Positions 4,981-44,800 of a stretch of DNA of 54,625 nt are shown here, in pieces; positions within the stretch are counted from its first letter, which is position 1, and each line of letters begins with the position of its first letter. Both the position numbers and the translations under genes were made by a program. This DNA comes from a virus, in the IMG/VR virus record IMGVR_UViG_3300008113_000089, positions 1-54,625 of that record; one strand, written 5' to 3'. The notes under the pieces are model-generated. The model was not told where the DNA came from and did no database searches. It saw only the letters and a list, made by a program, of their open reading frames with translations.

Positions 4981-5186
4981 ACTCTATCTACAATCTCATC
5001 TGAAAGTTCTTCATCGTCAGTCAGTTCTACAACCAGATACCAGATTGCTTTATGTAGGTCTTGATTCTTGTACTGCTTGTGATTACATCTAGCCACGTAC
5101 TTGATGACGTTGAATAGATGTGGGTTCAACCCCCAGTCCATTGCAAACTTCCTTGGACTGGGGCCTTTACGATAGTGTTCAACCAT
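4959..5186 (-). CDS. DUF3310-like small protein
   Basis: A 75-residue protein with the hallmark of DUF3310 phage proteins: an N-terminal HY..G region, then FNVIKYVARCNHK and a closing DLHKAIWYL helix. Proteins of this family are often annotated as nucleotide-kinase-like, but the function is not established. Start chosen at ATG 5186, overlapping the methyltransferase end by eight bases; upstream in-frame codons lie inside the methyltransferase gene. Last gene of the leftward operon. Confidence 0.7.
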   Translation of the reverse strand: MVEHYRKGPSPRKFAMDWGLNPHLFNVIKYVARCNHKQYKNQDLHKAIWYLVVELTDDEELSDEIVDRVKKHSLS

Positions 5187-6795
5187 GTCGTTCTTTGCTT
5201 TCTTGGATACGTCTTCCAATCCATCCCATGACAGGCACAGCCATGGAGTTACCAATTGCTTTATAACGGGGACCATCAGGAGTATCCTTGCGTATATCTG
5301 TCCAGTTGTCTGGGAAACCTTGAAGCCGCTCACATTCAATAGGCATTAACCGGCGAACAATCCAGTTGTCTTTATTGGCAAATACAATTGATTCAACAGG
5401 TGTTCCATCTGATCGGAATCCACTACCGGGATTAGCACGTAGCGTATTGGCTACATCGTGAGCAACGTATTGATCTTGTGATGCAGCTACAGTAAAAGCC
5501 ATCTCATCTTGTCCCAAGTATCCCGTGCCTCCTGTCCCACCAACGGGACCGCCACGGCTACCATCACCATTTCCACCACCACGCATCTTGAATGCATGAC
5601 TGTGGGCAATGCCGTGTACGCCTGTAGCATTTAGAGTGTACATGGGACCACCAACTGTAAACCCATCTCCGTTACCGCCGTTGAGCGGTTGGCGGCCAAT
5701 AGTGTTCTCAGCAAGAGCAATAGGTTGCACGGCAAGATTAGTGCTTTGGATGTCACCAATATCAAAGCAGTTCAACGTGTTTGCGATACCGTCATCTACC
5801 CACGTCTCTTCACCGTCTTTGCATCGAGGGCGTGTACTCTTACGGAAGATGTGCTGTACTAGCGGAACATTACCACCACCTGTACCCATATGGGCAGTCA
5901 GCGTCCCACTAGTCTCTGGTTCTTCGATTACCCGACCATCACTAGGATGATGGTTGTACAGAACGCATTGTTGGTTATCACCATTCTTATGGGATGATGC
6001 CAGTATGGTTCCTGTTTTCTCCGTAAGATTAAGATTACCTGTTCTGGCTAATGCTGGATTGAAACTTGCAGGGACAAAGAGAGTTGCACCACCATCAATA
6101 TGCTGGTTTTCCAAACCCATCTTGTCCCCGTAGTGAGCATCTAAGGTTCCTGCGATTCTTGCTGGCCAAGAGCCACCCTCCGCATCAGCGCTTGCTTCAG
6201 TACTGGAGGAAGTTTTTTGCCGCGACTTTCGGCTCTTCTGAGGATACCCTCGCAAGCTTTCGGACTCAAATAGTATTTCTCCGGCACGTCTTGAATCTCC
6301 ACTAATATGTCCGACAAGAAAGACTCGACGGCGGCGCTGGGGGACTCCAAAGTATTGAGCGTCAAGCACTCGGTAGGCCCACCCATACCCGATGTACCCC
6401 ACCGCCGTGAGGAGGGAACCAAAATCCCTTCCTTCGTGGGATGACAAAACACCGGGTACGTTTTCCCAGACAAAGAATTCTGGCTGATAGTACTCAACCA
6501 TTGAAACGAAGGTGAGGCTAAGATTTCCTCTGGGGTCATCGAGTCCTTTACGCAATCCTGCAACGGAGAAGGACTGACAAGGGGTTCCTCCGACAATAAG
6601 GTCAACTGTATCTCGGTCAAGATTCCACTCCTTAAACTTAGTCATATCTCCAAAATTGGGCACATCCGGAAAGCGTTTTGTTAAACTTTCTGAAGGAAAT
6701 TTTTCAATCTCCGAATACCCAACTGGAGTCCAACCTAAGTCATGCCAAGCAACTGACGCTGCTTCTATCCCACTGCATACACTTAGGTAACGCAT
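5179..6795 (-). CDS. dcm: DNA (cytosine-5-)-methyltransferase
   Basis: A 538-residue C5 cytosine methyltransferase with all main motifs: SAM-binding SVCSGIEAASVAW (5-17), catalytic GGTPCQSFS with Cys73, ENV (111-113), PQRRRRVF (152-159) and, near the end, ECERLQGFP and the GNSMAVPV motif X. Between motifs VIII and IX lies an unusually long, glycine-rich variable region of about 300 residues that contains the target-recognition domain. It probably protects phage DNA from restriction by methylating a specific site. The frame is open upstream, but ATG 6795 overlaps the LuxR gene stop (TAATG) and starts exactly at the conserved N-terminus. A second C5 methyltransferase domain occurs inside the giant protein. 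Confidence 0.93.
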   Translation of the reverse strand: MRYLSVCSGIEAASVAWHDLGWTPVGYSEIEKFPSESLTKRFPDVPNFGDMTKFKEWNLDRDTVDLIVGGTPCQSFSVAGLRKGLDDPRGNLSLTFVSMVEYYQPEFFVWENVPGVLSSHEGRDFGSLLTAVGYIGYGWAYRVLDAQYFGVPQRRRRVFLVGHISGDSRRAGEILFESESLRGYPQKSRKSRQKTSSSTEASADAEGGSWPARIAGTLDAHYGDKMGLENQHIDGGATLFVPASFNPALARTGNLNLTEKTGTILASSHKNGDNQQCVLYNHHPSDGRVIEEPETSGTLTAHMGTGGGNVPLVQHIFRKSTRPRCKDGEETWVDDGIANTLNCFDIGDIQSTNLAVQPIALAENTIGRQPLNGGNGDGFTVGGPMYTLNATGVHGIAHSHAFKMRGGGNGDGSRGGPVGGTGGTGYLGQDEMAFTVAASQDQYVAHDVANTLRANPGSGFRSDGTPVESIVFANKDNWIVRRLMPIECERLQGFPDNWTDIRKDTPDGPRYKAIGNSMAVPVMGWIGRRIQESKERHG

Positions 6796-7031
6796 TAGTC
6801 GATAAGCCCAAGGGATTGAGCCTTCTTCACAGCACGGGTACGAGCATCCATGCCACTGACGTTCAACTTCCAATACATATTGTCAGCGTGAAACTGGACT
6901 GTCCTAAAAGAGATTCCCAGTGCCGCTCCAATCATCTTGGCTGTCCGACCCTTTGCGAGATGCGTCAAAATCTCCAACTCCCGCTCCGACAGCGGATACT
7001 GCATTTCTTCTGCCTTTTGCTCTAATTCCAT
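6795..7031 (-). CDS. LuxR/GerE-type helix-turn-helix regulator
   Basis: A 78-residue protein that is almost only a LuxR-type DNA-binding domain: LSERELEILTHLAKG, then the turn IGAALGISFRTVQFHADNMYWKL and a final helix. It lacks a receiver or sensing domain. Start ATG 7031 has a good AAGGAG six bases before it; the longer frame upstream is less likely. It probably regulates phage transcription. A TGTACC/GGTACA inverted repeat (7044-7061) just upstream could be its operator. Confidence 0.8.
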   Translation of the reverse strand: MELEQKAEEMQYPLSERELEILTHLAKGRTAKMIGAALGISFRTVQFHADNMYWKLNVSGMDARTRAVKKAQSLGLID

Positions 7032-18696: not shown

Positions 18697-18973
18697 GTTG
18701 CATCTCGACTGGAATCAACTTCTTGCAGGTTTTATTGGTGCTGTTATCGGTACAGACTGGCCGAAGGTAAAGACAGTTATCCAAGGAATCATTACGGTGC
18801 TTTCTGGCACTGCATCGGCAATATACTTGACTCCGCTTGTTGCAAGACAACTTGGATGGGACAAACCACATGAGATGATTGGTTTGTCATTCTTGCTCGG
18901 TACATTGGGGCTTCGAACCGTACAAGCATTCAACACAATTATTGAGAAGACTCTTAAAAAGGTAAGTGAATGA
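18689..18973 (+). CDS. small membrane protein, holin-like
   Basis: Start chosen at ATG 18689, behind GACGAGGGA, overlapping the previous gene by eight bases. The 94-residue product has three hydrophobic stretches: LLAGFIGAVIG (about 11-21), a longer central one (about 34-55, VIQGIITVLSGTASAIYL) and MIGLSFLLGTLGL (about 65-77). This fits a holin. The endolysin lies 27 kb downstream, so the lysis genes are split. Confidence 0.55.
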   Translation: MDKLHLDWNQLLAGFIGAVIGTDWPKVKTVIQGIITVLSGTASAIYLTPLVARQLGWDKPHEMIGLSFLLGTLGLRTVQAFNTIIEKTLKKVSE

Positions 18974-19230
18974 CTTACTCCGAATCAGCACAGCTACTAA
19001 GAGTTGACGAGATGCCTGATGGCCGTGTGATTCTTTGGTGGAATGAAACAGAGTCGTTGAACTTTGAAAACGACCAATTATTCCAAGATTACTGCAACTC
19101 ATTAATACCCAACATTAAAATGCTATTACGCACACTGTTGATTATGGACTATTCGGAACAGCGTGTTGATGGCAAAACGGCATCGTTGTCTATTAGTGAT
19201 CCAGACAACGTATGGGTAACAGCAGAATGA
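18970..19230 (+). CDS. cassette 1, gene A: small protein
   Basis: An 86-residue acidic protein starting at an ATGA overlap. It is paralogous to the gene at 21568-21819: both have a W/F-rich strand followed by an F-x2-DYCNSL / F-x-QYCDESF helix and end with an ISDPDN / INDPNG turn. It is the first member of a duplicated A-B-C cassette. Possibly a small tail or chaperone protein; no family recognised. Confidence 0.6.
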   Translation: MTYSESAQLLRVDEMPDGRVILWWNETESLNFENDQLFQDYCNSLIPNIKMLLRTLLIMDYSEQRVDGKTASLSISDPDNVWVTAE

Positions 19231-20333
19231 TAATCAATCCATTAGGTCGTTATCAAAATGCGTACCAAACAGCATTTTCGTATTCCGCGTTTACGTTTAC
19301 AGCTGCAAGTCAATATGTAATTCAAATATTTACTGCGGAAGAAGACATGACCATCACTCAATTTGGCATGTGCGTATCCGGATCTTCTGGAACTCCACCG
19401 ATACGAATTGCTATGTATCAGTACGTAAAAGGGTTATCTATACCAAATCCACCAACGACTAAAACATACACTGACGCAAACCCTGTTAGTACACCGTCTG
19501 GTATTACTACGCCTACCTTTACATGGTGGAACCTCACAACACCTCAGACAATAGTGCGAGGGACAACATATGCAATAGGTATTGAGTCGTATGGCACATG
19601 GTCTGGCAGTTTATCGGTTGTTCAGAATCAAGATCAAAGTAAACGTGACTATACATTAATATCTGGGCAGCCATTTTCACGCACGAGTTCCACTAATGAC
19701 CAATACTCGTTTAGATGGGGTATTGCATCAACGACAAAAACTTATGGATACCCAGTCCAGACTAGTGGTTCTGAAAACATAGGTAGTTTTTCTACAAACA
19801 CATTTAGTGGCAACTCATTTATAATCCCCACTTCAATGGGTGCTAGTTGCACATTAGAAGGCATCCTGGCCCCAATAGCTCAAAACGCAAACTTTGTCAA
19901 CGCAACACTCAGGTTGTATAACGCCACGTCATATCCACCTACGCTAATAACTTCTAGGACATTATCTGATGGAGGTGTACCATCAGCATTGAATGCGTAC
20001 TATCAAAACCAAGGTGGTCAAGTGTACTTACCATTCACCACACCTCAAATATTAACAACTGGGGTCAAATATTTAGTTGGTATACAGAACACCGGAGATG
20101 CTTTCGCTGTAGGTAAATTTACATATGCACGAGCGCAGGACGCTAACTGCCTCAGCGATGTGCAAACGTATGGCGTTAATGGAGACATAACAGCAAACAC
20201 ATGGACTGAGTCCGGTACGATCAGATATGTGATTGGATTGGATGTGTCCTCGTTTACGCAAGGAAGTGGCCCAACTCCACCTAGCACATTGACGGCGGCC
20301 CCTCGGTATACAATAAACCCAGGTATTAATTAA
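19227..20333 (+). CDS. cassette 1, gene B: beta-rich tail appendage protein
   Basis: Start taken at ATG 19227 (ATGA overlap), though an upstream in-frame start at 19212 exists. The protein, about 368 residues, is Ser/Thr/Asn-rich beta material with two jelly-roll-like halves joined by the block TTKTYGYPVQT. Its paralog at 21819-22931 has STKSYGLPIET at the same place. Probably a tail fibre or receptor-contacting appendage; no enzymatic motif. Confidence 0.6.
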   Translation: MIINPLGRYQNAYQTAFSYSAFTFTAASQYVIQIFTAEEDMTITQFGMCVSGSSGTPPIRIAMYQYVKGLSIPNPPTTKTYTDANPVSTPSGITTPTFTWWNLTTPQTIVRGTTYAIGIESYGTWSGSLSVVQNQDQSKRDYTLISGQPFSRTSSTNDQYSFRWGIASTTKTYGYPVQTSGSENIGSFSTNTFSGNSFIIPTSMGASCTLEGILAPIAQNANFVNATLRLYNATSYPPTLITSRTLSDGGVPSALNAYYQNQGGQVYLPFTTPQILTTGVKYLVGIQNTGDAFAVGKFTYARAQDANCLSDVQTYGVNGDITANTWTESGTIRYVIGLDVSSFTQGSGPTPPSTLTAAPRYTINPGIN

Positions 20334-21571
20334 TGCAGAAGCTCAAACAGAACGAAACAACAGCAACATACAGACGTATCTATATGTTTCTGGCTTCCTC
20401 TGCTGACGGATACACCCCTGTAACTTCATTAGTTGGTGCTACCGTAAACCTGTTTAAGAATGGTGTAGCATTTTCATCACAACCAACTACACCTGCTTCA
20501 TTGACACACATAAGTCAGGGGCATTGGTATTACGAGATACCGCAAAGTTATCTTTCAGACCTTGGTATTCTTACGCTTACGGTTCAAGATACGAACATAC
20601 GACCAGTTGTCCTTATGGGTGAAGTAGTCGATTACAACTGGTATTCATCGACAGGTGCAACCGCACAACAAGTTTGGGAGTATGCAGATAGGCAACTCAC
20701 TGCGTCCCTCGATCCGACTGCTACGCAGATATGGGCAGCTGCAACTAGGACGCTTACCAATGGTGCTATTACCAACTCAACTATTGCTAATAACGCTATT
20801 GTTCTAAGGCTTGCTAATGATGCTCTTCCATCTAACGCTAGGTTCACGACTTACGACACGTTTAGTGGTTACCCGTTGCTATCGCAATCCGCACAGCATC
20901 AAGTATCGATAACTGGTGCTCATCACGCAGCCGCAGACGTACATGAATTCCAACCAGACGTTATTACGAACACTGCAACGGATGTCAGTTTTGTAACTGA
21001 AATGGTCAATGCTATATGGGATGAACTGACTACAGGACACAACGTAGTTAACTCGTTTGGCAAGCTCCTTAAAGACTTGCGGTTATCTACATATGTAACT
21101 AGTGGGCTTGTTACGTCCGCTGTAAGTCCTACTGCTGATGTTTTTTCCACAAACTTAGTAGCCCTTGATGGTACATATGATCATCAAACTTTACTATTTA
21201 TAACCGGTGACTTGGCGGGTGAATCTAAGCCCGTATTATCCTCCTTGCAATCTTCTGGTCAAATAACTTCTGAAGAAGCATTTACTGGTATTCCGCAAGT
21301 TGGCGATGAGTTTTACATTCTTCCAACTCATGTTCATGCTATCGAGTCTATAGCAGACGGAATACTAAGCCGATTACTAGATAGTTCAGGTAGTAGCAAT
21401 GATGTATTTAATGAACGCACTGTTCGATCCGCACTACGAGCAATGCGTAACAAAGTAATAGTTAGTAGTGGGAATATATCTGTGTATAAAGAAGATGATT
21501 CTACAGCAGCTTGGGAAGGCACAGTTAGTAACATTACTGATGTCACGGTAAATCCGGATGGTGGAGCATGA
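20333..21571 (+). CDS. cassette 1, gene C: tail-fibre/baseplate-like protein
   Basis: A 412-residue protein starting at a TAATG overlap. The C-terminal third has the block often seen in phage fibre and upper-baseplate proteins: ESIADGILSRLL, TVRSALRAMRNK and VYKEDDSTAAW. The same block ends the paralog at 22928-23716. The N-terminal part is a beta-rich domain with GHWYYEIPQSYL, absent in recognisable form from the shorter copy. Confidence 0.65.
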   Translation: MQKLKQNETTATYRRIYMFLASSADGYTPVTSLVGATVNLFKNGVAFSSQPTTPASLTHISQGHWYYEIPQSYLSDLGILTLTVQDTNIRPVVLMGEVVDYNWYSSTGATAQQVWEYADRQLTASLDPTATQIWAAATRTLTNGAITNSTIANNAIVLRLANDALPSNARFTTYDTFSGYPLLSQSAQHQVSITGAHHAAADVHEFQPDVITNTATDVSFVTEMVNAIWDELTTGHNVVNSFGKLLKDLRLSTYVTSGLVTSAVSPTADVFSTNLVALDGTYDHQTLLFITGDLAGESKPVLSSLQSSGQITSEEAFTGIPQVGDEFYILPTHVHAIESIADGILSRLLDSSGSSNDVFNERTVRSALRAMRNKVIVSSGNISVYKEDDSTAAWEGTVSNITDVTVNPDGGA

Positions 21572-21819
21572 CACAACTAGAATGTACTTTTGCCGGGCAA
21601 GATGCTGGCGGTGTATGGATGCTTATCTTTTCGGATGGTAACGGTATTGAGTTTCCAGACGAAAGTTCGTTTGCTCAATACTGCGATGAGTCGTTTATAG
21701 ACGTTATTGCAGTTGAGTCATTACGGCGTGTTACGGCAGCCCGTAAATACAACCAACAAATAGCATCTGTAACGTTTGATATTAATGATCCTAATGGCAA
21801 TTTACTGAAGGTGAATTAA
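21568..21819 (+). CDS. cassette 2, gene A: small protein
   Basis: An 83-residue paralog of 18970-19230, starting at an ATGA overlap and ending at a TAATG overlap. Shares the aromatic strand (GGVWMLIFSDG), the SSFAQYCDESF helix and the closing INDPNG. Confidence 0.6.
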   Translation: MTQLECTFAGQDAGGVWMLIFSDGNGIEFPDESSFAQYCDESFIDVIAVESLRRVTAARKYNQQIASVTFDINDPNGNLLKVN

Positions 21820-22931
21820 TGGCAGACTTTAAATTTACATACCCAGAAATACCAATGCCTTACAACGGCGCACCTGCATTTCAAACACATCCACTTGATG
21901 CTGAAACAGATAGATCTGCTGTTGTGTTTCGTGCGTGGGAACCTATGACAGTGACTACTGTGTCATTTAGGCAAGGTACGGTTACGGGAGGACCGGATGT
22001 ATTACGGGTTGGATTACAAGAAGTTGATGTAACAACTGGACTACCAAACGGAACCTGGTTAGGAGGTGTTAGTAATTACGGAACTGTGTCTGGAACATCT
22101 CTTGCCACTGGATGGAATACAGGTAATAACAACTCCTTCCTAACGCGCACATTACCAACGTCTGTAACTTTAACTCGTGGACAGACAGTTGCTCTTGTTT
22201 TAGATCCAGTTGCGGACGGAAGTGGAAATGGTTGGGATGCGTCTGACTTAGTAAACATTTCACGTTCAATGACAACATCTCACGGATTCCGTGGCCCTTA
22301 TGTTGTCGATAATGCAGCCAAGGGTACTGTCCAGAATCCCGTTTTTAAAATAAGCACTAGTACAAAGTCTTATGGATTACCTATTGAGACCGTAACATCT
22401 CGGAGCGTTGGTACTGGCACAAGCCCAGCTGTTAACGAGTGGGGTAATAGATTCAGAATACCAACCACTGTATGTTCAACATACAAAATTGAAGGTGTCC
22501 GAATAGGTGGTGTGCCTTCTTCTGCTGACTGGCGTTTACGGTTGTATGACACTGATGGAACAACAGTTCTACAAGAAGTACTTGTAGACAAAGATGAATT
22601 AAATCTTGGTACTGCTTATGTTGCGAACATTTATTGGGAAGATGCTACGCTCGCAACATTGAATGCAGGTAGTTATTATCGCATTGCATTTGCGCCAACA
22701 ACTGCAACTGCTACTGGTGCTATGTATGCATTTGATTTAGATGCAGCTCTTGACCGAGGGTGTTTTGTTGGTGATCCAGCTGATATATCTGCAACAGAAC
22801 GCAGAGATCCGGGAGCATGGACAGAGACAGATACACGCATCTGGGCAATGCAAGCACTAATATGTGATATTACTGCGCCGGTTGGCGGTGGCGGTTTGGC
22901 AGCTAATCCGTTAGCGGGGTATGTACGATGA
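21819..22931 (+). CDS. cassette 2, gene B: beta-rich tail appendage protein
   Basis: A 370-residue paralog of 19227-20333, strongly diverged except for layout and the mid-protein STKSYGLPIET block. Beta-rich, Thr/Gly-rich, ending in GGGGLAANPLAGY. Likely receptor-binding or appendage role by context. Confidence 0.6.
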   Translation: MADFKFTYPEIPMPYNGAPAFQTHPLDAETDRSAVVFRAWEPMTVTTVSFRQGTVTGGPDVLRVGLQEVDVTTGLPNGTWLGGVSNYGTVSGTSLATGWNTGNNNSFLTRTLPTSVTLTRGQTVALVLDPVADGSGNGWDASDLVNISRSMTTSHGFRGPYVVDNAAKGTVQNPVFKISTSTKSYGLPIETVTSRSVGTGTSPAVNEWGNRFRIPTTVCSTYKIEGVRIGGVPSSADWRLRLYDTDGTTVLQEVLVDKDELNLGTAYVANIYWEDATLATLNAGSYYRIAFAPTTATATGAMYAFDLDAALDRGCFVGDPADISATERRDPGAWTETDTRIWAMQALICDITAPVGGGGLAANPLAGYVR

Positions 22932-23716
22932 GTAAATATATCGGAGACTTCAGTAAGAATGACACTATCACCTTTATGTTTACGACATTTAGGCCATCAA
23001 CAGGTGCGCCTTTCCTTTTGGCAGGAACGCCTGTTGTGTCTGTATACAAGGATAACAACACAACTCAGGATACGGCGGGAGTTACACTTACAACTAACTA
23101 TGATGCTGTAACAGGATTAAACTTTGTTTCTATTAGTACAAGTGGAGCATTCTATGTTGATGGCTCATCATATGAGTGCGTTATTACTACAGGAACTGTT
23201 GATTCTGTAAGTGTTGTTGGTTCGTGTGTCGGGCGTTTTACAATGCGTGATCAAGCCTGTTTATATCCAACGACATCCGGTCGCACACTTGATGTTAGCA
23301 CTGGTGGTGAGGCTGGCGTTGACTTGGCAAACGTTGGTTCGCCAACCACAACGCTTGCATTGACAGGTACTACTATCTCGACATCTCAACAAGTAGCATC
23401 TGTGTCGGGGTCAGTCGGATCAGTTGCGTCCGGCGGTATTACAGCAACTTCTATCGCTACAGGTGCTATTGATGCGGACGCACTTGCAACAGATGCCGTT
23501 GATGAAATTGCAGACGGCATACTTAATCGCAACATTGCTGGTGGAAGCAGCTCAGGACGCTTGGTGAAAGATGCGTTCCGTGCTATCCGTAATAAGTCAG
23601 TCGTATCCGCAGGAACATTGACTGTCTACCAGGAGGATGACACTACATCAGCTTGGACTGCTACTGTCGGTTCTGACCCAACCGCAGAGCCTATAATAAG
23701 TATTGACCCTGCATAG
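22928..23716 (+). CDS. cassette 2, gene C: tail-fibre/baseplate-like protein
   Basis: A 262-residue protein starting at an ATGA overlap. Its C-terminus (EIADGILNRNI, VKDAFRAIRNK, VYQEDDTTSAW) closely matches gene C of cassette 1. The N-terminal half is a different beta domain, so the copies keep the anchor or trimerisation end and vary the rest, as receptor proteins often do. Confidence 0.65.
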   Translation: MSKYIGDFSKNDTITFMFTTFRPSTGAPFLLAGTPVVSVYKDNNTTQDTAGVTLTTNYDAVTGLNFVSISTSGAFYVDGSSYECVITTGTVDSVSVVGSCVGRFTMRDQACLYPTTSGRTLDVSTGGEAGVDLANVGSPTTTLALTGTTISTSQQVASVSGSVGSVASGGITATSIATGAIDADALATDAVDEIADGILNRNIAGGSSSGRLVKDAFRAIRNKSVVSAGTLTVYQEDDTTSAWTATVGSDPTAEPIISIDPA

Positions 23717-23724
23717 GAGGAATT

Positions 23725-24156
23725 ATGTCAGCATTTTCGAACTACTTGGAAGACAAGATTATTGGATGGGCGTTTAATAACACGGCATTCCCTACACAGC
23801 TTGCCACTGTTTATGTGTCACTACATACTGCCGACCCAGCAGATACTGGAGCAAATGAAGTTGTAGTAGGTGCAACTAACTACGCTCGCATTGCGGTTGC
23901 CGCGGCAGGATGGACTAAAACTACAGCAGGTACTGCAAGTGCTACAAATAATGCAGATATTACATTTCCTGCAACAGGCACTGTCACTTGGAGTGCAACG
24001 ACTGGTAGTGGTATTACCCATGTTGGGATTTGGGATTCTGCAATTGGTGGCACTAATAACTTTTTATTCGGTGGTGCGTTGTCATCTTCAAAGCTTGTAG
24101 CGGTTGGTGACGTGTTTAAATTCACTAACGGTAACTTGACTATTAGTGTGACCTAA
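23725..24156 (+). CDS. phage tail-fibre-type protein
   Basis: A 143-residue protein with strong AGGAGG. It has the pattern of a widespread small tail-fibre family: NYLEDKIIGWAFNN at the start, then VYVSLHTADPADTG and a beta-sandwich with THVGIWDS. Probably part of the distal tail. Stop overlaps the repeat-protein start (TAATG). Confidence 0.7.
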   Translation: MSAFSNYLEDKIIGWAFNNTAFPTQLATVYVSLHTADPADTGANEVVVGATNYARIAVAAAGWTKTTAGTASATNNADITFPATGTVTWSATTGSGITHVGIWDSAIGGTNNFLFGGALSSSKLVAVGDVFKFTNGNLTISVT

Positions 24157-25598
24157 TGGCTACAAACCCACAGGGTTATCGTTCGTGGTGGGGTAAGTGG
24201 GCTTTTGGTAAGGCCAACCCCACAGGTGTCATATCAGCCAGTGCATCGCTTGTTGCACTGGCTTCAATTGCTTCAGTTGGCATAACAGAGAAGCAAGCGT
24301 CTTCTGCAATATCAGGCGTTGCAACCGTTACATCGGTAGGTACACCGAATAAGATTGGTCTATCGTCCATATCGGGCGTTGGTTCCATAGCAGCCACGGG
24401 TCAACTCAATAAGGTTAGCTCTGCTTCAATCAATGGTGTTGCAAGTGTAACGTCAGACGCAACACTTACACTTGTAGGTGCATCATCTCTTACTGGTGTT
24501 GCTTCTATATCAGCTGTTGGTCAACCCAATAAACTAGCATCATCCGCTATATCTGGTGTTGCATCCATCACTTCAACTGGTGTAACTCAAGAGTTAGGTA
24601 TTGCTTCTCTTTCTGGCATTGCGTCCATCACGGCTGTTGGCACACCTAACAAGTTTGGAGCAGCTTCCTTTAGCGGTGTGGCTACGATCTCGGCAACCGC
24701 ACTTGTCACGTCCACATCAACAGCAAACGCTGACTTGTTCGGTGTTGCTTCTATATCCGCAAGTGCGGTCAAGCAACTTAATGGAGTAAGTAGTATCAGT
24801 GGTGTAGCGTCCATTACAGCCAATGGCACTACATCCACAATAGCTCAGGCCACCGCAAACCTTATTGGTATTGCTAGTCTTACTGCTGATGCTACTGTTG
24901 GGTCATCAGTTACAGGATCTGCAAGTCTAATTGGTGTTGCATACATATCTTTAGTAGGCACTCCAGTAAAGATTGGTGCATCGTCTCTTATTGGCGTTGC
25001 AACATTATCTGCTCTGCTTTCAGAAGAGCATCAGGCAACGTCATCCATTGTCGGCGTTGGATCAATAACTAGTACTGGCATCATCGAAAAACAAGTTGAC
25101 GCTAGTATTACTGGTGTTGCTACCATCACTGGTACAGGACAACGTACTGCCACTGTCTCATCCTCTATTACCGGCGTTGCAACTATTGGAGCAACTGGCA
25201 ACGTCATTATTGATGCTGGCGCACCTAATCCACCTGGTGTAAAAACTACACTTACTGGTATTGCGACTATCACTGCTACCGCTACATCTGGTGCAGTCGA
25301 ACTCTGCGAATGCCCACCATGGGTTACTAAGCAAGAAACTGTATGTGGTTGGTTAGAGTCACCTACGCTTGGCTATACAACGACTGGTGGCTCTGAAAAG
25401 GTATTCCCATTCACATTACCCGTATTCCGATGGTATGACCTATCTACATCTGGTGGCGGTGGTACATCTACGTTTGACCCCGGCTACACTGAGCCAGTGA
25501 CGCTTCAGGATAATGCAGTACGGGATAATAGTTTGTCAGACACGTCAGTAACTCCAATGACGTTGCCAAGATTGTTCTCACGTAAAGGTTGCGGATAA
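24156..25598 (+). CDS. tandem-repeat tail protein
   Basis: A 480-residue protein. After an N-terminal segment with GYRSWWGKWAFGKANP, about 17 imperfect units of about 20 residues follow (residues about 27-375; consensus SSISGVASITATGTPNK). They alternate short strands in a way that suggests a regular beta stack or spike shaft. The end (about 380-480) is a separate domain with CECPPWV and a second cysteine (residue about 394). Probably a tail-fibre shaft with a C-terminal tip. Reading-frame shadows on the other strand are explained by the repeat. Confidence 0.65.
   Translation: MATNPQGYRSWWGKWAFGKANPTGVISASASLVALASIASVGITEKQASSAISGVATVTSVGTPNKIGLSSISGVGSIAATGQLNKVSSASINGVASVTSDATLTLVGASSLTGVASISAVGQPNKLASSAISGVASITSTGVTQELGIASLSGIASITAVGTPNKFGAASFSGVATISATALVTSTSTANADLFGVASISASAVKQLNGVSSISGVASITANGTTSTIAQATANLIGIASLTADATVGSSVTGSASLIGVAYISLVGTPVKIGASSLIGVATLSALLSEEHQATSSIVGVGSITSTGIIEKQVDASITGVATITGTGQRTATVSSSITGVATIGATGNVIIDAGAPNPPGVKTTLTGIATITATATSGAVELCECPPWVTKQETVCGWLESPTLGYTTTGGSEKVFPFTLPVFRWYDLSTSGGGGTSTFDPGYTEPVTLQDNAVRDNSLSDTSVTPMTLPRLFSRKGCG
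24230..25290 (+). repeat. about 17 tandem 60-bp repeat units in the fibre gene
   Basis: Degenerate 60-base units encode the 20-residue motif S-[SA]-[IL]-[ST]-G-V-A-[ST]-I-[TS]. They are too diverged for recent replication slippage along the whole length, although the core words GGTGTTGC and CATC recur strongly. Confidence 0.7.
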
Positions 25599-32827: not shown

Positions 32828-32863
32828 GCTGTCCATAGTTGGTAAAATGCAATTATGGACAGC
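32828..32863 (+). promoter_or_regulatory. 10-bp inverted repeat overlapping the giant gene start codon
   Basis: GCTGTCCATA (32828-32837) and TATGGACAGC (32854-32863) are perfect complements around a 16-base loop. The right arm contains ATG 32855. In mRNA this would hide the start codon; in DNA it is a symmetrical operator-size site. Confidence 0.55.
32843..32848 (+). promoter_or_regulatory. -10-like TAAAAT six bases before ATG 32855
   Basis: GTTGGTAAAATGCAATT places a TANNNT hexamer six bases before the giant gene ATG, the same arrangement as at 7366 and 9615. It sits in the loop of the inverted repeat. Transcription from here would make a leaderless mRNA lacking the left arm of the hairpin. 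Confidence 0.35.
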
Positions 32864-35800
32864 AATTCGCGATTTTCCGTAAAAGGCAGTAACCCCGTTC
32901 GTGACTACCAAGGGCTTAAAGAGCGCAAAGGTCGTTACGCTCCGAACTCTAAAGAAGATGTTCGTGCTAAGCTTGGAGAGGGTGGTAAGTACGACGATAT
33001 TCTACTTACTAACGATTACGCTAACCTAAAAGCATTTGCCTTAGAAAAGGGCTTTATTACTCGTGGTGAAGCTGAGAGCATTGCCAAACATAAAGCAAAC
33101 CGTGTTGCTAGTCTGATTGCTGAGGGTAAAGCAAATCAGTTTGCAGGTCGTGAGTACCGACCAGATTTATCTCCTGAAGCAGCACAGACCAAACGTCAAA
33201 ACATTGGTGCTGAGTATGCCGCACAAGCGCCAATAGAGCGTCAAAAAGATATAGAACTTCTTGGCAAGATGGGTTACACACCCGAAGACGTACAGAAGTT
33301 TGGTACTGATAGATCCGGATTTATCCCTCAAGGTGTGCCGATTATTGGTGGCAATGAAGTACCAATTGCATCTCAATCATTCTGGCAAGACCCAATGCGT
33401 AACCTTGGCATCAGTGCGTACCAAGGTGGCGTAGGTCTCGGTGCTACAGCCGAAGGTATGGTTGCTCCTGCTCGAGCACTTGCTACTAGATTTACAGGCG
33501 GTGACCCGACACAGTTCTATGCTCCTAATGAAAACCCATTGGTTGAAGCAGGAACAATCTTTGGTTCCAATGCAGCTGAAAGTGCGGCTGGATTCCCTGC
33601 TCGTTACGCCGGTATGCGTATCGGTGGTGAGTTAGGATTCAAGGGCGGTATGGCACTCAGTGGTGGTAACCCACTCTGGGGCGGTGTAGGTGCTGTTGCT
33701 GGGGGTATGCTCGGTCAGCTTGGTATGGGTCACGCTATGGAGACCCTGAACGATGCGGCTATGAACCTTATTCTTGGACGTGAGAATGCAGCTAGACTGC
33801 AACAACGCAAACAAGAAATGTCTGCTCAGTATCCACTTGCCGCACGTATTGGTGAGGAACTTCCTGACCTTGCTATGTTTGGGCCGTCATTTAAGGTCAA
33901 GGGATTTAGCGGTAAGGCAGCACGTCAAGGTTTCAAGCAAGCCGGTATGAAGGGACTACGCCAAGGTGTAGTTGATTCAACTGAGTTTGCGGGTGACCTT
34001 GCCGAGCGTGGCGGTGAGTCTGCACTCAACATGGTGCTTGCTTACAAGCAATCAGAAGACGAAAAGAAACTCGGCATGCCGGGTAAGTCTGCTTGGGACA
34101 TCCTTGCTGAAGGTGCACTTGGCGCTGTTATGCAAGGTGACACTCGTGTAGGACGAGCTGTATACGGTGGATTAAACCGTCTTACTAGCCCACAGATGAT
34201 TCAGCAATCTATTGAACGTACCGCACCAGGTGCTATGCCAATGTCTCCTGCCGTAGATACTGGCTCTGCTATGCGCCCCGGTATGCGTCGATTCAACCTT
34301 GGTGGTCGTATTGAGAGTGGTGTTGATGAAGATGGCAGCCCAATTATCAAGGGCGCACGTTACGCTATCTATGACCCAGAAGCACGTAAGGCACAAGTCT
34401 ATACTGACAACGACTTTGCTCTAGAAGGTGCACGTACACGCAAAGCAGCACAGAGCCTTCAAGGCACACAGAATATCTTCAAGCGTCAGCCTGTCATTCA
34501 ATACGATGACACAGTAGTTGGTGGTCAGCGTCAGATTCTAGGCATCACTCGAGATGCTGGTGTCCTTGTGCGTGACTACACAAAAGATGGCAAGTCTGCT
34601 ATATCCGCTGTTCCTCTTAGCGAAATCCGCAACGCTAAGATTAGCAAGCGTATTAATGAGGTTATTGAGAATCAGGGTGTGCGACCGAACTCACGTCCTG
34701 CACCATTTATGCCAGAGGCATTTACCAACTTTAACCCCGTAGCATTCCCTGACACAGTGTCCCTGACAACGGATTCAGAGCCGATTCCTGCAAGAGTTGT
34801 AGAACGAATTGGAGGTAAAACGGATGCTTCGTATATTGTTGCGTTGCCTGATGGCACACACTTTCGCGCTCATGAATCACAGATTAATGTAGACAAGTTT
34901 ACTGGTGGTGAACACATCATCCGTGGAGCAATGAAAGACACTGACTTCCCACGGTCATTGGCTGACCTTGCTCCAAAGCGTGGTGGCTTGGACGGTCTTG
35001 TGCGTATCGGTGAGGGTTCGGATGCACCATTCGTTGAACTGACTCCTACCCAACGTAAAGACTATCAGGCTGTTGCTACGAAGTATCAAGCAGATATCGA
35101 CGCTATTAAACGAGAACCAGACAAGACCCGCCGTTCACAGATGTTGGACATTGTTCAAGGCAAGATTGCAAACGAGTATCTTGCTACAAATCCAATAGCA
35201 CCTCCGACCGGAACTTGGAAAGAAGGTGACGTAGTTGATGTTAACCTTTCACAGACGAAATTTGCCGGTAAGCCACAAACTGCTATTGTTACTGATGTCA
35301 ACGATTATGGTTATGCTGTACGACTGGTGGATCATCCCAACGTTGGCACATTTACAGTACAAGATGCAAACGTTATGGGTGAAGCTGTACCTGATGTACC
35401 AACTGCTCGTTCTAACAAGGGAGTTAAATCTCTAGCAGCCGGTCGTATTTCGACTGAGCGTTCTACGGCTACTGGACGTGATGGTGTACCTGCGGTGACA
35501 CGTGGCTATGCGTCCACTGGTATGGCAGCTACTGACGTTGCTACAGTCAGTGATAAGGCAAAGCACGTTGACTATGTAGAGTTACCAGAAGATGTCCAGC
35601 AATCCATCCAGAAGCGTTTCAAGAAGGCTGTAGATGACGGTGAGATTACCGCTGGTAATAGTATTGACTTTGTAGAAACAACCAAAGACGGTCAGGTGCA
35701 TGGGCAGATTCATGTTCACGCACTAGACAACATGACATTCCAAGTTGTTGCTACCAACTTCCCGGAAGGTGGCGGTGCAATTAAGGATCAGTACGTTTCG

Positions 35801-38800
35801 TCTTATAACGTACGCTACAACCCTGAGACTGATATGTGGGATGTCTACTCTGTAGATCCTGATACCGCTCGGCGTATGAGTGAATCTGACGAAGCCGCTT
35901 ACATGGCTATCAGTCACCTCAAAAATGTTGCGCCTGTAGAACAAGACGTAGAAAATTGGGATGTCCAGAACGTACCGAAAGCAACACAACGTCAAATTCT
36001 AAACACATACCTTGATGCTGTAAATGTAAAGTTTCCAATCAAACCGGAATACAAAACAAGTGACGATTTCAGCACATTGCTCGACGCAACTGAGTATGAC
36101 ATTATGGACGGCAAGTTCATAACTCCTTTTGATGTTAGTGCTTTTAACCCACGTCATTATTACGTTGATGTGTGGACTAATGAACAATTAGATATGACTG
36201 ACCCTTATCAATATGCACGGGCATCAGATGTAGGTCGTGACATATATGACAAGTTTAGTAAAGGTGATACTCATCTAATAGGAGGGTTAATTAATGAAAG
36301 ACGTAAAGAGGCATTAAAAGCACTCGATACATATCTATATAAAAACATAGATAGATCTAACTGGACAAGACCAGAGCATCAATTATTCTTATTGATGGCA
36401 TCTAAACATGCTGTCAAGACCGAATTAGACGCAAACAAAAACGTCATCCTTAAACTAACTGAGATCAGTAAGAATAATGAAGTCTTACCAGCCAGTTACA
36501 CACAAGTTGATTACGATGCATTTGTTAAGGCCCTACGCTCTGGCATTGCTCCTAAAAAGGCATTTTTGGCATCAGCCGAATATGCACAACAACAAAACAT
36601 CGCTAATCGAAACGTACCTGTTCATGGCTGGAAGACATATCCACAAAGTGACAGCAAAGAAAATCACGCAGAATTATCTCGTGACTGTGCTGGAACCGTA
36701 TGGTGTGTTGCTGGTACGGACATGGCTGCTCATTACATGAGTCAGGGTGATTTTTATGTCTACTTTGATAATTCCAAACCAACCGTAGCGTATTGTGGAA
36801 CCTACAGAAATATAGTTGAGCCACCACGCGGAACTAAATATTCCAGTCAAGCAGTTACAGCACATGAGCAACAAATTGCCTTACAGCACATGGCAGATAA
36901 TGGCATAGCACCAGATTACAAAGATGATGTTGCTGCTACAAAAGCTGCGTACGACATAATGATGGGTAATGGCACAACAGAAGATGTAGATAAAGTAAAA
37001 AAACGTCAAGCACGATTGTACAGTTCTGAAGACAAAGACACGCCATCTTCTATTTTAAAGAAACTTGAAGCTACAAATACACCAAAAGTTGACTGGACAT
37101 CTACGGCATTCAGAAATAGATACAATCGCCAAGGTGGAGGTAAAACACAACTAGAGGTTATTACAGAGCTACCAAACTTTAGAACTAACTATGAAAACCT
37201 ACTATCTGACCCTGAAGGCGTAAAGTATACCATCGATGACGTGCAATCAATAAGTGTTAGAAATGAAGCGGACATAAACACACTTGCTGAACTGTATCAA
37301 AAACACATTGCTAGCAAAGAACTAAAACATTCCATCGTAGTCCATATGTGGAATAACCAGTTCGACAATTTCGGTACGAATCTTTATGAAATTCAGCAAG
37401 GAGCTTATGTTGACCAAAAAGTAATTGATGACATTTACAAAAAGGATTCCAAGCAAGGACTTAATGCGTCAGCATTTAATAATGATTTTTCATGGGCTGA
37501 ATTCCCAAGTCATGCAGCACCTGTAATTAACATTGACGGTAAAGATGAAACCCAGACATTAAAAGTCAATGAGAAATCCACATATGCAATATTAAACAAT
37601 GCTGAATACCTTAAAGTTGAGCTTACGCCATATTCTGGTGGCGGGCAGTTTATAGGTTTTGCAAGTCCAGTTTTTGTCAACGCCAATAACAATCAGCAGA
37701 TTAATGTAACCGCAGATTTTAAACCAACTATTAGATTTAAACCTCGAGCAATTAATGGTCATGTATCAATAACAAACATTCCTACAGAAACATTGACCTT
37801 TGATATTGCCGATGCAGTGCTTGCGGATTCAACGAATACATATACACGCATTACGGCTAATCCTTGGGCTACTGGCGTAGCAACAATTATCAACAGTACA
37901 CCCGAACAGACGCGTATTGGGGAAGTTGATTTTACCGCCTCCGATGCTAGGTTAATTTATCAACCGTTTCAAAATCCTGAACCGTTAGAAATAGATGAGT
38001 ATAAAGGTGACCTAACAAGTATAAGCAACTCCGAAGTCAGGCATTATGTTGCCATGATGGAGGACTTTAGTGTAGATGGAAAAGTGGATACCATCTATAT
38101 GAATGGTCGCAAACACAATGTAACGTCAGGTCTTCGTGCGGACGTGCGTAAATTCCGCATCGGAGATCCAGATAGTAGGATTACCATCGATGTCCATAAT
38201 GATTACCATACGACATATATTGAAACAGACGAAACAAGTACAACCCCACTTAGAGATCAAGGCAACCTAACGTTACGACTTACTGGTGAAAAACCTCACG
38301 TATTTTTACAGAACGATGGTGTCTTCCATAACCTACAAATTAACAGTGTTAATCCACCTGATATTACACATGTTTTTGATGTTAACGGTATGGACACATT
38401 TGTGACTGGTACCTGGGGTGATGACGGGTTTAATATCAAAGCAGATGTTTATGCTCAGTTGCGTGGTGGTAAATCCATCAAAGCATTAGCTCAAAGTCTA
38501 ACAAGATTCGGTGTAGATTACATATCCGCAGATCAGCTGCTGTTTATAAAATCAATACGGCAAATGGTTACTGCTCAATTTTCTGTCAGTAAAACGTTGC
38601 AAGCGGACGTGTTCAACACGTACTTAAATAACTATGACACTTCCAATATACACATTGAAGCATTTGACCGTCTTGGACGATTAGATGCTGATAGTGTTCG
38701 AGCATTATTGACAGCAGAAATTGCGCCTGTTGAGCAATTTAAATCTGTTAGTGACCTCGCAAAACAAGACCCAACTAGAGTTGCTACTATCAAGTTACAG

Positions 38801-41800
38801 GATTCTGTTTTTGAGTTATCGCCTTTGTATTCTAGATACCATGCCAAGCAACAAAGTGATCTTATCGAAGCCCGACGAAAAGAAGCGTCGAAGAAATCTA
38901 TTACAACAGAAGATGAAGAGTATTACAGTGAGTTTCCGAATACTAACAATCTGGAATTGGAAAGCGATGTCATATCTTTTCCTGATGGGCCACCACCGCG
39001 CCCAGATAATCTCGGCGATGACGTTGCTTATCAAGAAATTGATGATGCTGGTACTACGCCATCTAAGACTCCTAAAAAGGTAGGTTCCGGATACAAACTT
39101 CAAGGTTCGTTCCGTATGTCTGTTCCAACTTCCCAGTTGCGTCGATATCGTGAGGAAGTAAACAAGCTTGCTATTCAGCATGGCGTTGACTCGGAAGCAT
39201 ACCGAAAGGGTATGAAGAAGCTTGAGAAGGAATACCGTGAGCTTATCAGTCAGGCTAGTGCACAGGTTTTGGCAATCATCAACAAGATTGCTACCGAACA
39301 GCGACCTAACGTAACCGGCTATCAACAGAAGGATACGACTGCGGCACGTATTGGTTATGCAATCAAGTCAGTAGACCGCAACTTCAACAACCTGCCTAGA
39401 CCTTCTGGGGATACTCCGGATAATCGTCTTGGAACATACAAGATGATGTTCAATGCACTCGGCGAAGATTATTCGGTAGATGCATTCCGTGTAAGTAATC
39501 GTGCTCAACTCAAGACTGTTTTACAGAAGCAGTACAAGTACGATGCTACAAACGCTGATCGTATTTCAGAAGTAGTTGACCGCTTTGCTCGAGCATGGGC
39601 GTTCGACAAGATGCAGTCTATGGGATTCCGCCCAACTGAAATCGTTGAGATTACAGGTAAGCTTGCTGAGAACCTTCTTGAGGCAGGTGCTTACAACACA
39701 CCGTCATCAGATATGCTGTTTCAGCACTTCCCTGGTAAGACACCTAAGGAAACGAAACTTGTCGCACAGTACATGCGTGAGTTCTACGAAGACAGGTTTG
39801 CTGCATTCGGTGTTCTCGATGACGCATACGACTTTACTAAGAAGTTCCGTGGAGCAATCTTCCGTACAAACAAAGCCAAAGATGATGCAGTTCTCAATGT
39901 CATCGTAGGTTTTGCTTCCCGTGATGAGACCACAGGTATTCACGAAATAGCACACGCTCTCTTCCGTGGTATGGGTTACCCATTCCAAAAAGCAATTGCA
40001 GAAGCAATGGGTGTGAACTCAATGACACTTAAGGCAATGGCTAAGGAAGGTAAATTTCCTATCTGGGTAGAGGAGAAATGGGCAGCCGCATTCGAAGGTT
40101 CACTCCGTGCAGGTGTAGCACCGCAAGCCAAAGATGCAACTGACCCTACACGTCCACGTCAACAAGACCCAACATTATCGAAACTATGGATGGAACTTGG
40201 TGACTTCCTGACAGGTGCACGTAATGCAACAATCAAAAAACAGATTGCAAGTGGCGAGATACCTGAGTGGGGTAAAGATGAAAAGGGAACCAGATGGATT
40301 GCTAGATTTAAAGCAACAGACAAACTTTATACAGGTAATGAACTTGAACTTGAGAATGGTCAGTTCGTCACGGTAAAAGCAACGCAATCAGCAGCCGGTG
40401 AACCCGTACAGGTAGTTGATGTTGATAGCGGAAAAGTATCTACAGTATCTGTTGATGAAATCAAAAGATACTCAGGGCGTGTTCCATCTGGATTCAATGC
40501 AGCAACTCTTGACACGTTATCGACATGGCTTCGTAGTTACTACGGAAACACCGAGCGTAACATCCGCACCACACTGCCTGACATGGTTGCTGACTACAGC
40601 GGTGGTGAGGTAGACCTTGGACAACTCAGGGCTGAATCAACTAAGCTTCAGAAGGTAGCATTCCAAGAGGCAATGGATGAGCCTCGCTCACCACTGCTTA
40701 GCTCACTGTCTAAGATGAGTAGCGTACAGACTGGAATCAAGTCTCTGCTGGCAAACAATCGTTTAGAGATTGGTAACAAGGGCACAGTCAAGAACGCATA
40801 CGACAGATACGGTAAACCATCTAACTCATTCCGTTTACTGCGTGATGTCTACGGTTTTGATGGGAATACCGCAGCTGCCTACTACGCTCAAACTGAAACA
40901 CCTGAGTTTAAGAAGTGGTCTGAAAACCTACCACTCCTTGAAGCAGTAAACAGCATTCAGGTTTCGCCTGACATCGACATGAATAAGATGTCACCAGAAG
41001 AGCGTAGCAACTATCGTCGCTATGAAACTGGACACGAGCTTGCTAACCTTGCATCAGAAATCCTACGTGATGGAGCTGATGACAATGACGTTGATAAGTT
41101 TGTTGATTTAGCAGATCAGTACTATCGTAATGACGGACGTAGCCTGAAAGAAATCCGTAAGGCTGTTGAGCAAATCGTTAATGCTAATGAAGATGAAAAC
41201 GTACAGCAACTCATGTCGTTTGAAACATCTTTGCGACGAGAGCTGGAGACATCCACAGACTTTGAACAGGCACGTGAGGTTTCGGTTTCATCCGATGTCT
41301 ATCGGAATGCTGCACATACACCTCGTACAGGTAAGGGATTCGTCACTGTTTCCTTCCCTGCTATGGAGTCATCAAACCTCATCCGTACAAAGAACGGTGT
41401 GGTTCTTACCTCTGGCATTACCTCATTCGATGGTAACCGCCAAGGTGGTGAGTACATCAAGTTTAAAAACCCACAAGTTGTAAACCTTGAAGGGCAAGGT
41501 ATTGACCAGAAGAAACTCGACCGCATCATAGCAAACGCCACTAAGGCAAAGCGTGATGGTGTTGTACTGCTTAACCTACGCCACAGTAATACAGTCAACT
41601 CTGCATTGCATAACGTAGCAGTGCCAATCACACGCTATCCAACCAAGTCTATTGTTGCAGTACCAGGTGTTGACCTTGGTACATACTTCAGTGGTGGTGG
41701 AACGCTCGAGGCAAGCGTATACGAATCTGTATTCCCTAAGATTGCAGTTGAGTACAACGCTGAGATTGCATCTGTCTATCGTGCTAACCACGGTGACCAT

Positions 41801-44800
41801 GTACAGGTAAAGGACGTACAAGAGGTTGACCCTACTAGCCTGAAGGATGTTCAGTGGTTCCACGCATCACCAGTATGCAAGAACTTCTCTGATGCTAACC
41901 CGAATGCTATTGAGACTGTCCTTGACAAGAAAACTGGCAAGGCAGTTGTCGATGCTATTGATCATAGCCGACCACCAATCGTTACCATTGAGAATGTAGC
42001 CAAGTATCGTGAGAGTGAAAGCTTCACGGCTATCTTGGATGCACTCCGCCGTAATGGTTATGAGTTTGACTACGGTGTCTACAAGACATCTAAGTATGGC
42101 GGTGGTACAAGCCGACAACGATTAATTGTTCGTGCTGTACGTGGCTTTGCACTTCCTCCAATCATCAAGACTGATGCATCGCAGCGTACTTGGTATGAGT
42201 CAATCAAGGACATCATTGACACATTGCCAGTCAGTGAGCTCGCACCAAATCAGTTGCGTAAATTGGAAGCATCCAAGATTGACGTACGAGCAATGAAAAC
42301 ACCTGTTCTCTTTACGCAGAACAGTTACCATGCGGTTGGTATTACAGCCGATAAGGTATTCCCATCATTCACAACATCAGGCGGAACGTATCGTATCCTG
42401 ATGCCGGGTGGACAGGTACGTGCTATCACTGGTGTTGCATTCCGTAGGATGATGGGTCTTCCGGATGCATATCTGCTTCCAGAATCCGAGCCACTGGCAC
42501 GTAAGATTCTGGCTAACGGAGTACCAGCTGAACTGTCGCAAGTTATCATGGCTCCTCTTGCTGATGCATATGCACGGCATAACATGAGGCGTTTAGTCCA
42601 AGAAGAAATGCGCCGCATGGATACTGAAGAGCAAGCAGCATATCAAGAAGTAGATGATGAACCACGCAAAACCGTTTACATCATGCGTGGTGTATCGGGT
42701 AGTGGAAAAAGCACACTTGCTAATAAACTTGTTGGTAAAACTGGTCGCATATTTTCAACGGACAATTATTTTGTCAACGCTGAAACAGGACAATATAAGT
42801 TTGACCCAACAAAGATAAGTGAGAATCATTCCAAGAATCTAAATGCATTTGTCACGCAACTAGAAAACTCTGAGGGGACACAAACACCACTTATTGTTGA
42901 CAACACTAATATGCAACAATGGGAGTATGCTCCTTATGTTGAAGCAGCTCGTAAGTATGGATGGGATGTAGAGTTTGCTGAAATCGACCCACGAAAATAC
43001 ACCGATGCAGACATCAAGCAACTGGCAAAACGCAACAAGCATGGTGTATCGGAAGACGTAATTCGCCAAATGATTTCTCGTTATGAGCCACGGGATACCG
43101 GAGGTGATGTTGCTTATCAAGAAGATGGTAAGAATCGCCGTGTATCTAATGCGGCCATGCTTTCCTATGTTGCTCAAACGGCAAACATTTCTGAATCTGA
43201 CGTACAGAAGTTGATTGATGATGGTTCTTTACCAAAGCCAATTGACGGCTATTACGACCCAATTACATTCCGTGCTTTGCAAGCAAGAGTATCTGTTGCT
43301 GTAAGAACGGGCAAAGACGGTAAGTTGAATTGGGATAATGCAGTAAAGTTTGTTCCAATCATCCGGGATTTGAACAAGAAACAAATCCCATTCGATACAG
43401 ATGGCGCTCTGGAATTCTCTGAACTTGTTCATTGGTTAAAGACTCGCAAGGGTGAGTTGTTCCCAATGCCAAATATAAGAGGTGAAAAGATTACCGTGGA
43501 GCGAATGATTAGAACGTTTACCAACTCTAATGTTGCTCCGTCTGAATACGTTGTTGGCGGTGACCGCTCTGGTCTGATGTATGACCCACGTATCCTTTCC
43601 GCTCTTGAGACATATACTAATATGCGACACAACGGTTATGCTGTTGAGTTCATCAAGGGTGTACTGAATCCAGAAGGTGAACAACGGACATTGGAGGGCG
43701 GTGTCGGAGTCAAGGAGTTCTTGGAGATACTCAATTCTGGTAGAGATAAGCCAATAACTCAGGACATCATCACTAACTGGCGAGTTAAAGGTGGCTACAT
43801 CCCAGCAATGCTTAATGACCCGGCACATGGAGTAGGCAAACTATTCACGCCTGATCACTTATTAATTGCTGAAAAGATTGCCGACCTAATTGACTCAGGA
43901 GTTAGTCAGTCAGTTACTAAAGGTCAATTGAAGGCGCGATTAATTGCGGACCCTGAATACGTCGAGGCATTTACTCGTATCGTTACCCATCCTTGGTATC
44001 AATCAACTTCGACAACTACGATGGCATCTATCAAAGAAGCCAAACCGATTATGCGTATGGCAGATGTCATTGCCGCCATTGCAAAAGAAGTTGAACCTAA
44101 TAAGTTCACAGTTGCAAATTACCAAGCACTTGAACGCAGTGGAAATATTCCAAAGGGTCTCAAGCCAAGTGATGGAACGACACGCCGACAGTACAACGAT
44201 GACTATGTCAAACTTGCAGTCATGGCACTCAATCCTAAGTATAGAGGTAAGACTGCTGAGTTCAGAAAGCAAGATCCTGAATACCTAAAGCTTTGGAACA
44301 AGATTAATGACGCAGTCAGAAATTCTGAATCTGGTTCTGAGGAAGCAGCATACCAAGAAGCAGATGACTTGTTCCCATCGCAACGCCGTACGGTCGAAAC
44401 GTCCGACATGCCGGGTGCACCAATGTACGTCGAGCGTATCCGTCCAAAGCAACTCCCTCCACGCAATGCATGGTTCTGGGGTGCGATTGACTTGTACAAC
44501 GACATCACCCGCCTCCCACTCTCTGGTGACCTTGCATTCCAAAACCTTCAGGGTGGAATCATTGGTTTGAGCAATCCACTTGTTGGTCTCAAGGCATTCA
44601 AGGCTGGTCTACAAGGCTTTGCTCCGAACATGCAAATTGAGGTCAATGGTCAGTTGTATGGTAGTCGTAAGTTTGGACGTGAAACCTACCACGCAGCCGG
44701 TGAAGCTATGCGCCGTAACCCAATGTACAAACTGGCTAAGGAAGCTGGTCTTCCTCTGGCTATGTTTGAGATTGACGCTCGGCTACAAGAAGCACGGGAG

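Follow-up and report, generated by a model that had tools for sequence, protein, structure and literature searches.

A short peptide at the C-terminus of one protein predicts the class of the first domain of the protein encoded by the next gene, in an appendage locus found in a virus and its relatives. Every B protein of this locus ends in a glycine linker and a tag of about 13 residues, predicted to be disordered, and the class of the tag predicted the class of the N-terminal domain of the following C protein in 62 of 62 classified distinct pairs. All evidence is comparative.

The stretch of DNA that was analysed, 54,625 bases long and here called the window, makes up an entire IMG/VR virus record. 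It carries a podophage structural module with a large terminase, a portal protein (phrog_156), a major head protein (phrog_212) and a holin-like gene. The locus consists of six contiguous or overlapping ORFs in the order A1-B1-C1-A2-B2-C2, bounded by the holin-like gene and, on the right flank, by the gene of a gp80 family protein (podophage GP4 fibre I; 23725..24156). The six ORFs and all features for which coordinates are given lie on the + strand. The gp80 family protein matches PF23140, named 'Podophage GP4 fiber I protein' in Pfam (E=4.8e-32), and PDB entry 8jou_a (E=5e-14). Named relatives found with this protein include Bcep22-like phages, Burkholderia phage BcepIL02 among them, and in no case does identity reach 60%. 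The A-B-C region gave no match to named phages at the DNA level, tblastn of B2 and C1 against named phages found no homologues, and a scan of a genome collection with C found no relative.

Two paralogous gene sets in a two-slot locus

Set 1 (18970-21571) comprises A1 (18970..19230, 86 aa), B1 (19212..20333, 373 aa) and C1 (20333..21571, 412 aa), and set 2 (21568-23716) comprises A2 (21568..21819, 83 aa), B2 (21819..22931, 370 aa) and C2 (22928..23716, 262 aa). The A proteins are small, putatively accessory proteins, and B1 is a beta-rich and probably exposed protein of the same family as B2, for which a structure was modelled. The B1 ORF was taken from 19212; the start at 19227 given by a sequence-only reading of this DNA is an alternative in-frame Met. 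Both C proteins are built of an N-terminal domain, a spacer and a conserved C-terminal domain. In C1 the N-terminal domain is of gamma class (MQKLKQNETTATYRRI...) and the end (21335..21556; IADGIL...RNK...EDD) belongs to the first-slot cluster, and in C2 an Ig-like N-terminal domain of alpha class (residues 4-106) is combined with a last-slot end.

Pairwise BLASTP support was clear for B (23% identity, E=2e-7) and C (46% identity across the last 74 residues, E=5e-16), and weak for A (24% identity, E=0.001). Profiles from disjoint families of relatives, aligned with hhalign, linked all three pairs, with probabilities of 85.8% for A1/A2 (34 columns), 97.5% for B1/B2 (313 columns) and 99.4% for C1/C2 (66 columns, all in the last 66 residues), as compared with 0.1% for three unrelated cross-family control pairs. 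HMM iteration reached A2 from A1 and A1 from A2, and likewise within the B and C pairs. The sequence-only reading had described two paralogous A-B-C sets in the same order, with a TKxYGxP block in B and the IADGIL...RNK...EDD end in C. ORFs, BLASTP and hhalign bear this out, and the block is present as TKTYGYP/TKSYGLP in the B pair. Homology confined to C is rejected since the A and B profiles also align. As expected in that reading, the variability lies in B and in the N-terminus of C; no sequence homology could be detected between C1 and C2 in their N-terminal halves, and their N-domains fall in different classes.

Relatives were collected by scanning IMG/VR with the head protein, B2, C2, an alignment of C, a beta-helix protein and another B, which gave about 190 loci, many of them one contig seen twice. 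Pair counts were made after removal of identical sequences, and because the relatives are still not independent, tree-based contrasts are reported as well. Two C-closed modules were found in 11 of 14 distinct relatives spanning the full interval (bounded by the holin region on one side and by the gp80, repeat-protein or 1263-aa-protein genes on the other), and one was detectable in the other three; two modules are the normal state in these podophages. Since this is so, and since the copies are ancient (B about 21-23% identical), the locus is a two-slot appendage locus with deep paralogues and not the product of a recent duplication. The cassette had been called duplicated, which is right in so far as the sets are paralogous, but the arrangement is not particular to this genome.

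The content of the slots varies. B1 and B2 of the window sit in different old clusters (4 and 7), and B proteins of cluster 7 are found in the last slot (window and others) as well as in the first (four relatives), so that B proteins move between slots. In the second module of three relatives (L034, L083 and L016) C is retained and the places of A and B are taken by unrelated genes, whose products have 73 aa and about 374 aa, the longer one being beta-helix-like. In other relatives a beta-helix protein and C are joined as one ORF of about 530-680 aa, and in L044 one module is fused and the other split; such fusion speaks for B and C working together as a single fibre. Proteins of relatives were assigned to the beta-helix kind from the pattern and appearance of their sequences. 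An A' protein accompanied 12 of 12 beta-helix modules, and A was present in 35 of 52 beta-sandwich modules (none detected in 17). A thus follows the fold of B and is dispensable for the pairing of tag and C domain.

Pairing of the tag on B with the first domain of C

The AlphaFold2 model of B2 (pLDDT 84.8, pTM 0.82) is a tandem beta-sandwich, in agreement with the earlier description of B as beta-rich; the beta-helix fold occurs in relatives only. Nearly all residues of the tag (357-370) have pLDDT below 50. Among solved structures B2 came closest to chains of phage baseplates and central fibres (E about 1e-4, TM about 0.3), carbohydrate-binding modules ranking lower, and the top match in a viral structure library was a phage protein of equal length. 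For C2 the model quality was modest (pLDDT 69, pTM 0.40); a beta-sandwich at the N-terminus (4-106) is followed by a spacer that leads to a helix-helix-strand end. The fold search of C2 returned Ig-like matches only, led by weak matches to Ig domains (best E=0.0018). C gave nothing reliable against Pfam and PHROG, where no T4gp10-like docking domain was matched, and the B and C profiles matched no phage fibre in PDB. The match of the B profile to 7ona, an artificial Kelch design (E=8e-5), consisted of weak repeated matches and was not taken as homology.

When all pairs were sorted, the tags fell into five classes, namely alpha (AANPLAGYVR), beta (GPVIGGRLIN), gamma (APRYTINxGIN and relatives), delta (SASFTMFNG) and epsilon (VHPGMxGGxRG), and behind each of them stood a class of C N-terminus peculiar to it. 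In the window, B1 ends in a gamma tag (20286..20330, STLTAAPRYTINPGIN end), and B2 in a linker and tag of alpha class (22887..22928, GGGLAANPLAGYVR), predicted to be disordered. The C N-termini clustered by their own sequence agree with the tags, with alpha, beta and epsilon cleanly apart, and gamma, delta and two unclassified pairs in one cluster. Tag and C class shared 1.57 of 1.57 bits of mutual information (the entropy of the C class), and the B body and C class 0.59 bits. In a tree built from 49 B bodies with the tails removed, and with the C class read by pattern from the first residues of C, tag and C class agreed in 49 of 49 entries, and each changed 19 times, in parallel. The independent contrasts on this tree all agreed (epsilon 10/10, alpha 6/6, gamma 6/6, beta 4/4). 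Tags occur on both tandem beta-sandwich and beta-helix B proteins, and the GGLAANPLAGYVR end is common to B2 of the window and unrelated beta-helix proteins of relatives.

The pairing was also recovered when 2.9 million viral contigs were scanned for two of the tags as degenerate DNA patterns, blind to C. The 86 stretches found (65 + 21) were all located at the C-terminus of an ORF and upstream of the cognate domain, including three which the automatic pattern missed and which are plainly epsilon on reading. The proteins bearing these tags were B proteins, beta-helix proteins and three proteins matching neither profile, and some of the C proteins behind them were very diverged, with other C-terminal domains. 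The natural fused beta-helix-C ORFs, on the other hand, carry no tag, and an epsilon-like domain directly follows the helix in 34 of 34; a 35th listed ORF (L069) was a mis-started C and not a fusion.

Comparison with close relatives delimits the exchanged unit. The DNA of the window and L035 is about 96-100% identical from A1 through most of B1, and identity collapses to about 50% around the B1 tag and the start of C1. L034 and L041 have an unrelated B in the B2 slot, yet the B2 tag and first C2 domain form a block (22889..23294) that they have in common with the window, at 83-85% DNA identity; its edges are sharp and lie at the tag and behind the first C domain. Finally, L001 and the window have A1, B1, most of C1, A2, B2 and C2 in common, and module 1 of L001 carries a beta tag and beta domain.

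The opposite end of C follows another rule. When the last 80 residues of C were compared (37 first-slot and 36 last-slot sequences), all 37 first-slot ends fell in one cluster, and 29 of the last-slot ends in three others. The remaining seven fell in the first-slot cluster, where the displayed members form a visibly distinct group of the fused kind. Epsilon and gamma N-domains were found in either slot. As the ends cluster by slot and the N-domains cross slots, the two ends of C vary independently; the first domain follows the tag and the last domain follows the slot. The sequence-only reading had missed the tag, its strict pairing with the first domain of C and the slot-specific end of C.

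Proposed docking and its alternatives

Our reading, which we consider rather probable as a whole, is that each slot of the locus encodes its own kind of tail fibre or spike, two kinds in all. B would be the exposed, exchangeable and host-facing part, its tag plugging it into an Ig-like socket domain at the start of a C protein of its own class. The conserved, slot-typed alpha/beta domain at the end of C probably holds the fibre on the virion, and A, small and suited to the fold of B, may have an accessory role.

Because the tag adjoins the start of C, linkage alone would tend to keep both together. The two lie within about 40 bases of each other and could be one recombination unit, with the end of B kept for the ribosome-binding site or start of C and not for docking; Gly codons near the B stop are usable as a Shine-Dalgarno sequence, and the fused ORFs, which need no start site, likewise lack the tag. 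The tag is, however, constrained at the protein level: its residues hold while synonymous positions vary (full-tag pN/pS within classes 0.14-0.33, with 0.24-0.59 synonymous differences per site), the epsilon peptide is unchanged at three positions of the C start, 7 and 3 bases before and 2 after the end of the B stop (offsets +7, +3 and -2), and the tag peptide persists before very diverged C proteins. Since tagless fusions also fit a start-site role, the argument rests on pN/pS, the offsets and the blind scan, which together speak for selection on the tag as a peptide. We regard linkage alone as unlikely.

The sets could also be virion decorations, i.e. neck or head fibres without a role in host choice, and this would fit the naming of the neighbouring gp80 family, which PHROGs lists as 'head protein' and Pfam as 'fiber I'. 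Against it, B slots hold tailspike-like beta-helix proteins and are the most exchanged among the conserved structural genes, which makes decoration quite unlikely. That the tag binds a partner other than the first domain of C (A, a chaperone or the tail nozzle) is very unlikely: a C-terminal tail of B could serve folding or trimerisation, but the tag class follows the C N-domain and neither the slot nor the B body, and B modules without detectable A are still tagged.

The simplest reading of the slot-typed ends is that C contacts the virion through its last domain, at the end opposite to the usual N-terminal anchor; alternatively, it may be a slot-inherited chaperone or trimerisation domain. 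The location of the sets on the virion and binding to a receptor are suggested by context. The view of the region as a tail-appendage locus agrees with its position next to gp80, a GP4 fibre I homologue, with the baseplate and fibre matches of B2, and with the beta-helix proteins, typical of tailspikes, in the B slot of relatives. It had further been proposed that two receptor-binding sets could widen or switch host range. Widening is plausible. Switching is not supported: both sets are ordinary same-strand genes without strong flanking inverted repeats, and the only two weak pairs at the locus (75-77% complementary) flank neither module, so an inversion switch was rejected.

Exchange of fibres needs compatible joints, and here the probable joint can be read from sequence: a short peptide tells which domain will follow and is retained on putative receptor-binding folds that are unrelated to one another. 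There is, in our estimation, an even chance that the at least five matched pairs of C-terminal tag and Ig-like socket amount to a plug standard, by which unrelated receptor-binding folds swap across fibres, slots and lineages on C-terminally attached fibres. A virus could then exchange its bacterium-binding parts like fittings. If docking is true, the tag alone could point out, in environmental phages that lack annotation, which proteins face the host and which are their partners, and purified proteins would serve to test how fibre modules are shuffled with the virion kept intact.

Comparison with known fibre systems

The Bcep22-like fibre locus (BcepIL02 gp57-gp62, JC1; GP4 gp80) follows a related virion plan: it has a gene of the gp80 family and, behind the head genes, a tandem series of paralogous fibre genes, three in JC1 and four in BcepIL02 (PMC9144972). 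Those fibres have a common N-terminal domain (residues 3-101 of BcepIL02 gp58 match 8jov), and the A, B and C profiles matched none of the BcepIL02 fibres. Homology to the fibres of GP4 or BcepIL02 was rejected, the neighbour gp80 being the only match. JC1 gp55, a 92-aa protein encoded just before a fibre gene, is found in virions (PMC9144972); no homology was found between A and its BcepIL02 counterpart.

Beta-helix tailspikes resemble the beta-helix-like proteins of about 375 aa that relatives carry in the B slot, alone or fused to C. Unlike tailspikes, these begin with the helix at residue 1, without an N-terminal anchor domain, and have their attachment elements at or after the C-terminus of the helix; the B proteins of the window are, in further contrast, beta-sandwiches.

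Among open-licence papers we found none describing the pairing of a C-terminal tag with a C domain. The closest likeness is to phages K1E, K1-5 and SP6, where short N-terminal peptides attach a receptor-binding protein to an adaptor, as also proposed for Klebsiella phages (PMC6872550). In this group, which includes the anchor-branched receptor-binding proteins of the Klebsiella phages, the peptide has 7-11 residues or more and holds the receptor-binding protein on an adaptor or another fibre (PMC6872550). Both there and here, a short conserved peptide is carried by an otherwise variable protein with exchangeable binding or enzymatic domains. In those phages, however, the peptide stands at the N-terminus and docks to an adaptor or T4gp10-like domain, whereas here the tag is C-terminal, the gene order differs, and the partner would be the N-domain of the next gene product, Ig-like in the model, in at least five matched classes.

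Tags and sockets in other gene arrangements

Two tandem B genes precede a single C gene at two of the relative loci from viral contigs (L094:2090-4242 and L132:7015-9170), and the first B of each pair carries a conserved tail of its own (YVNASPMFTGGFSG and YINASSLFTGGFNG, respectively), which may represent a further class of the C-terminal tag. At three loci from the DNA-pattern scans (L208, L216 and L252), epsilon-tag pairs were found in which C ends in a different domain, possibly Ig-like or BppU-like, instead of the conserved IADGIL...EDD end. These loci probably belong to other phage types with the same tag-socket joint.

Epsilon-like sockets in GenBank phages

An epsilon-like socket was also present in the GenBank phages MW202621.1 and MW202627.1 (L277:1893-3100 and L278:2131-3375), both of which originate from Manatee Spring. 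In one of them the socket is split from the upstream protein, which terminates in a Gly linker plus a tail of diverged sequence (SVKRWPPQMQGGMRSLTGGMQ); in the other it is fused and lacks a tag.

Other window genes and BcepIL02

A C-5 cytosine DNA methylase of 564 aa (5179-6873, minus strand; PF00145, E=4e-55) is encoded on the strand opposite to the structural genes, and is distinct from a giant ORF of 4431 aa (32855-46150) whose domains include a C-5 cytosine methylase and an AAA domain. A 480-aa protein (24156-25598) is built from repeats of approximately 20 residues with 60-base spacing, and its counterpart in the podophage BcepIL02, as judged by position and appearance, is gp56. The giant ORF lies where BcepIL02 has its DarB-like giant protein.
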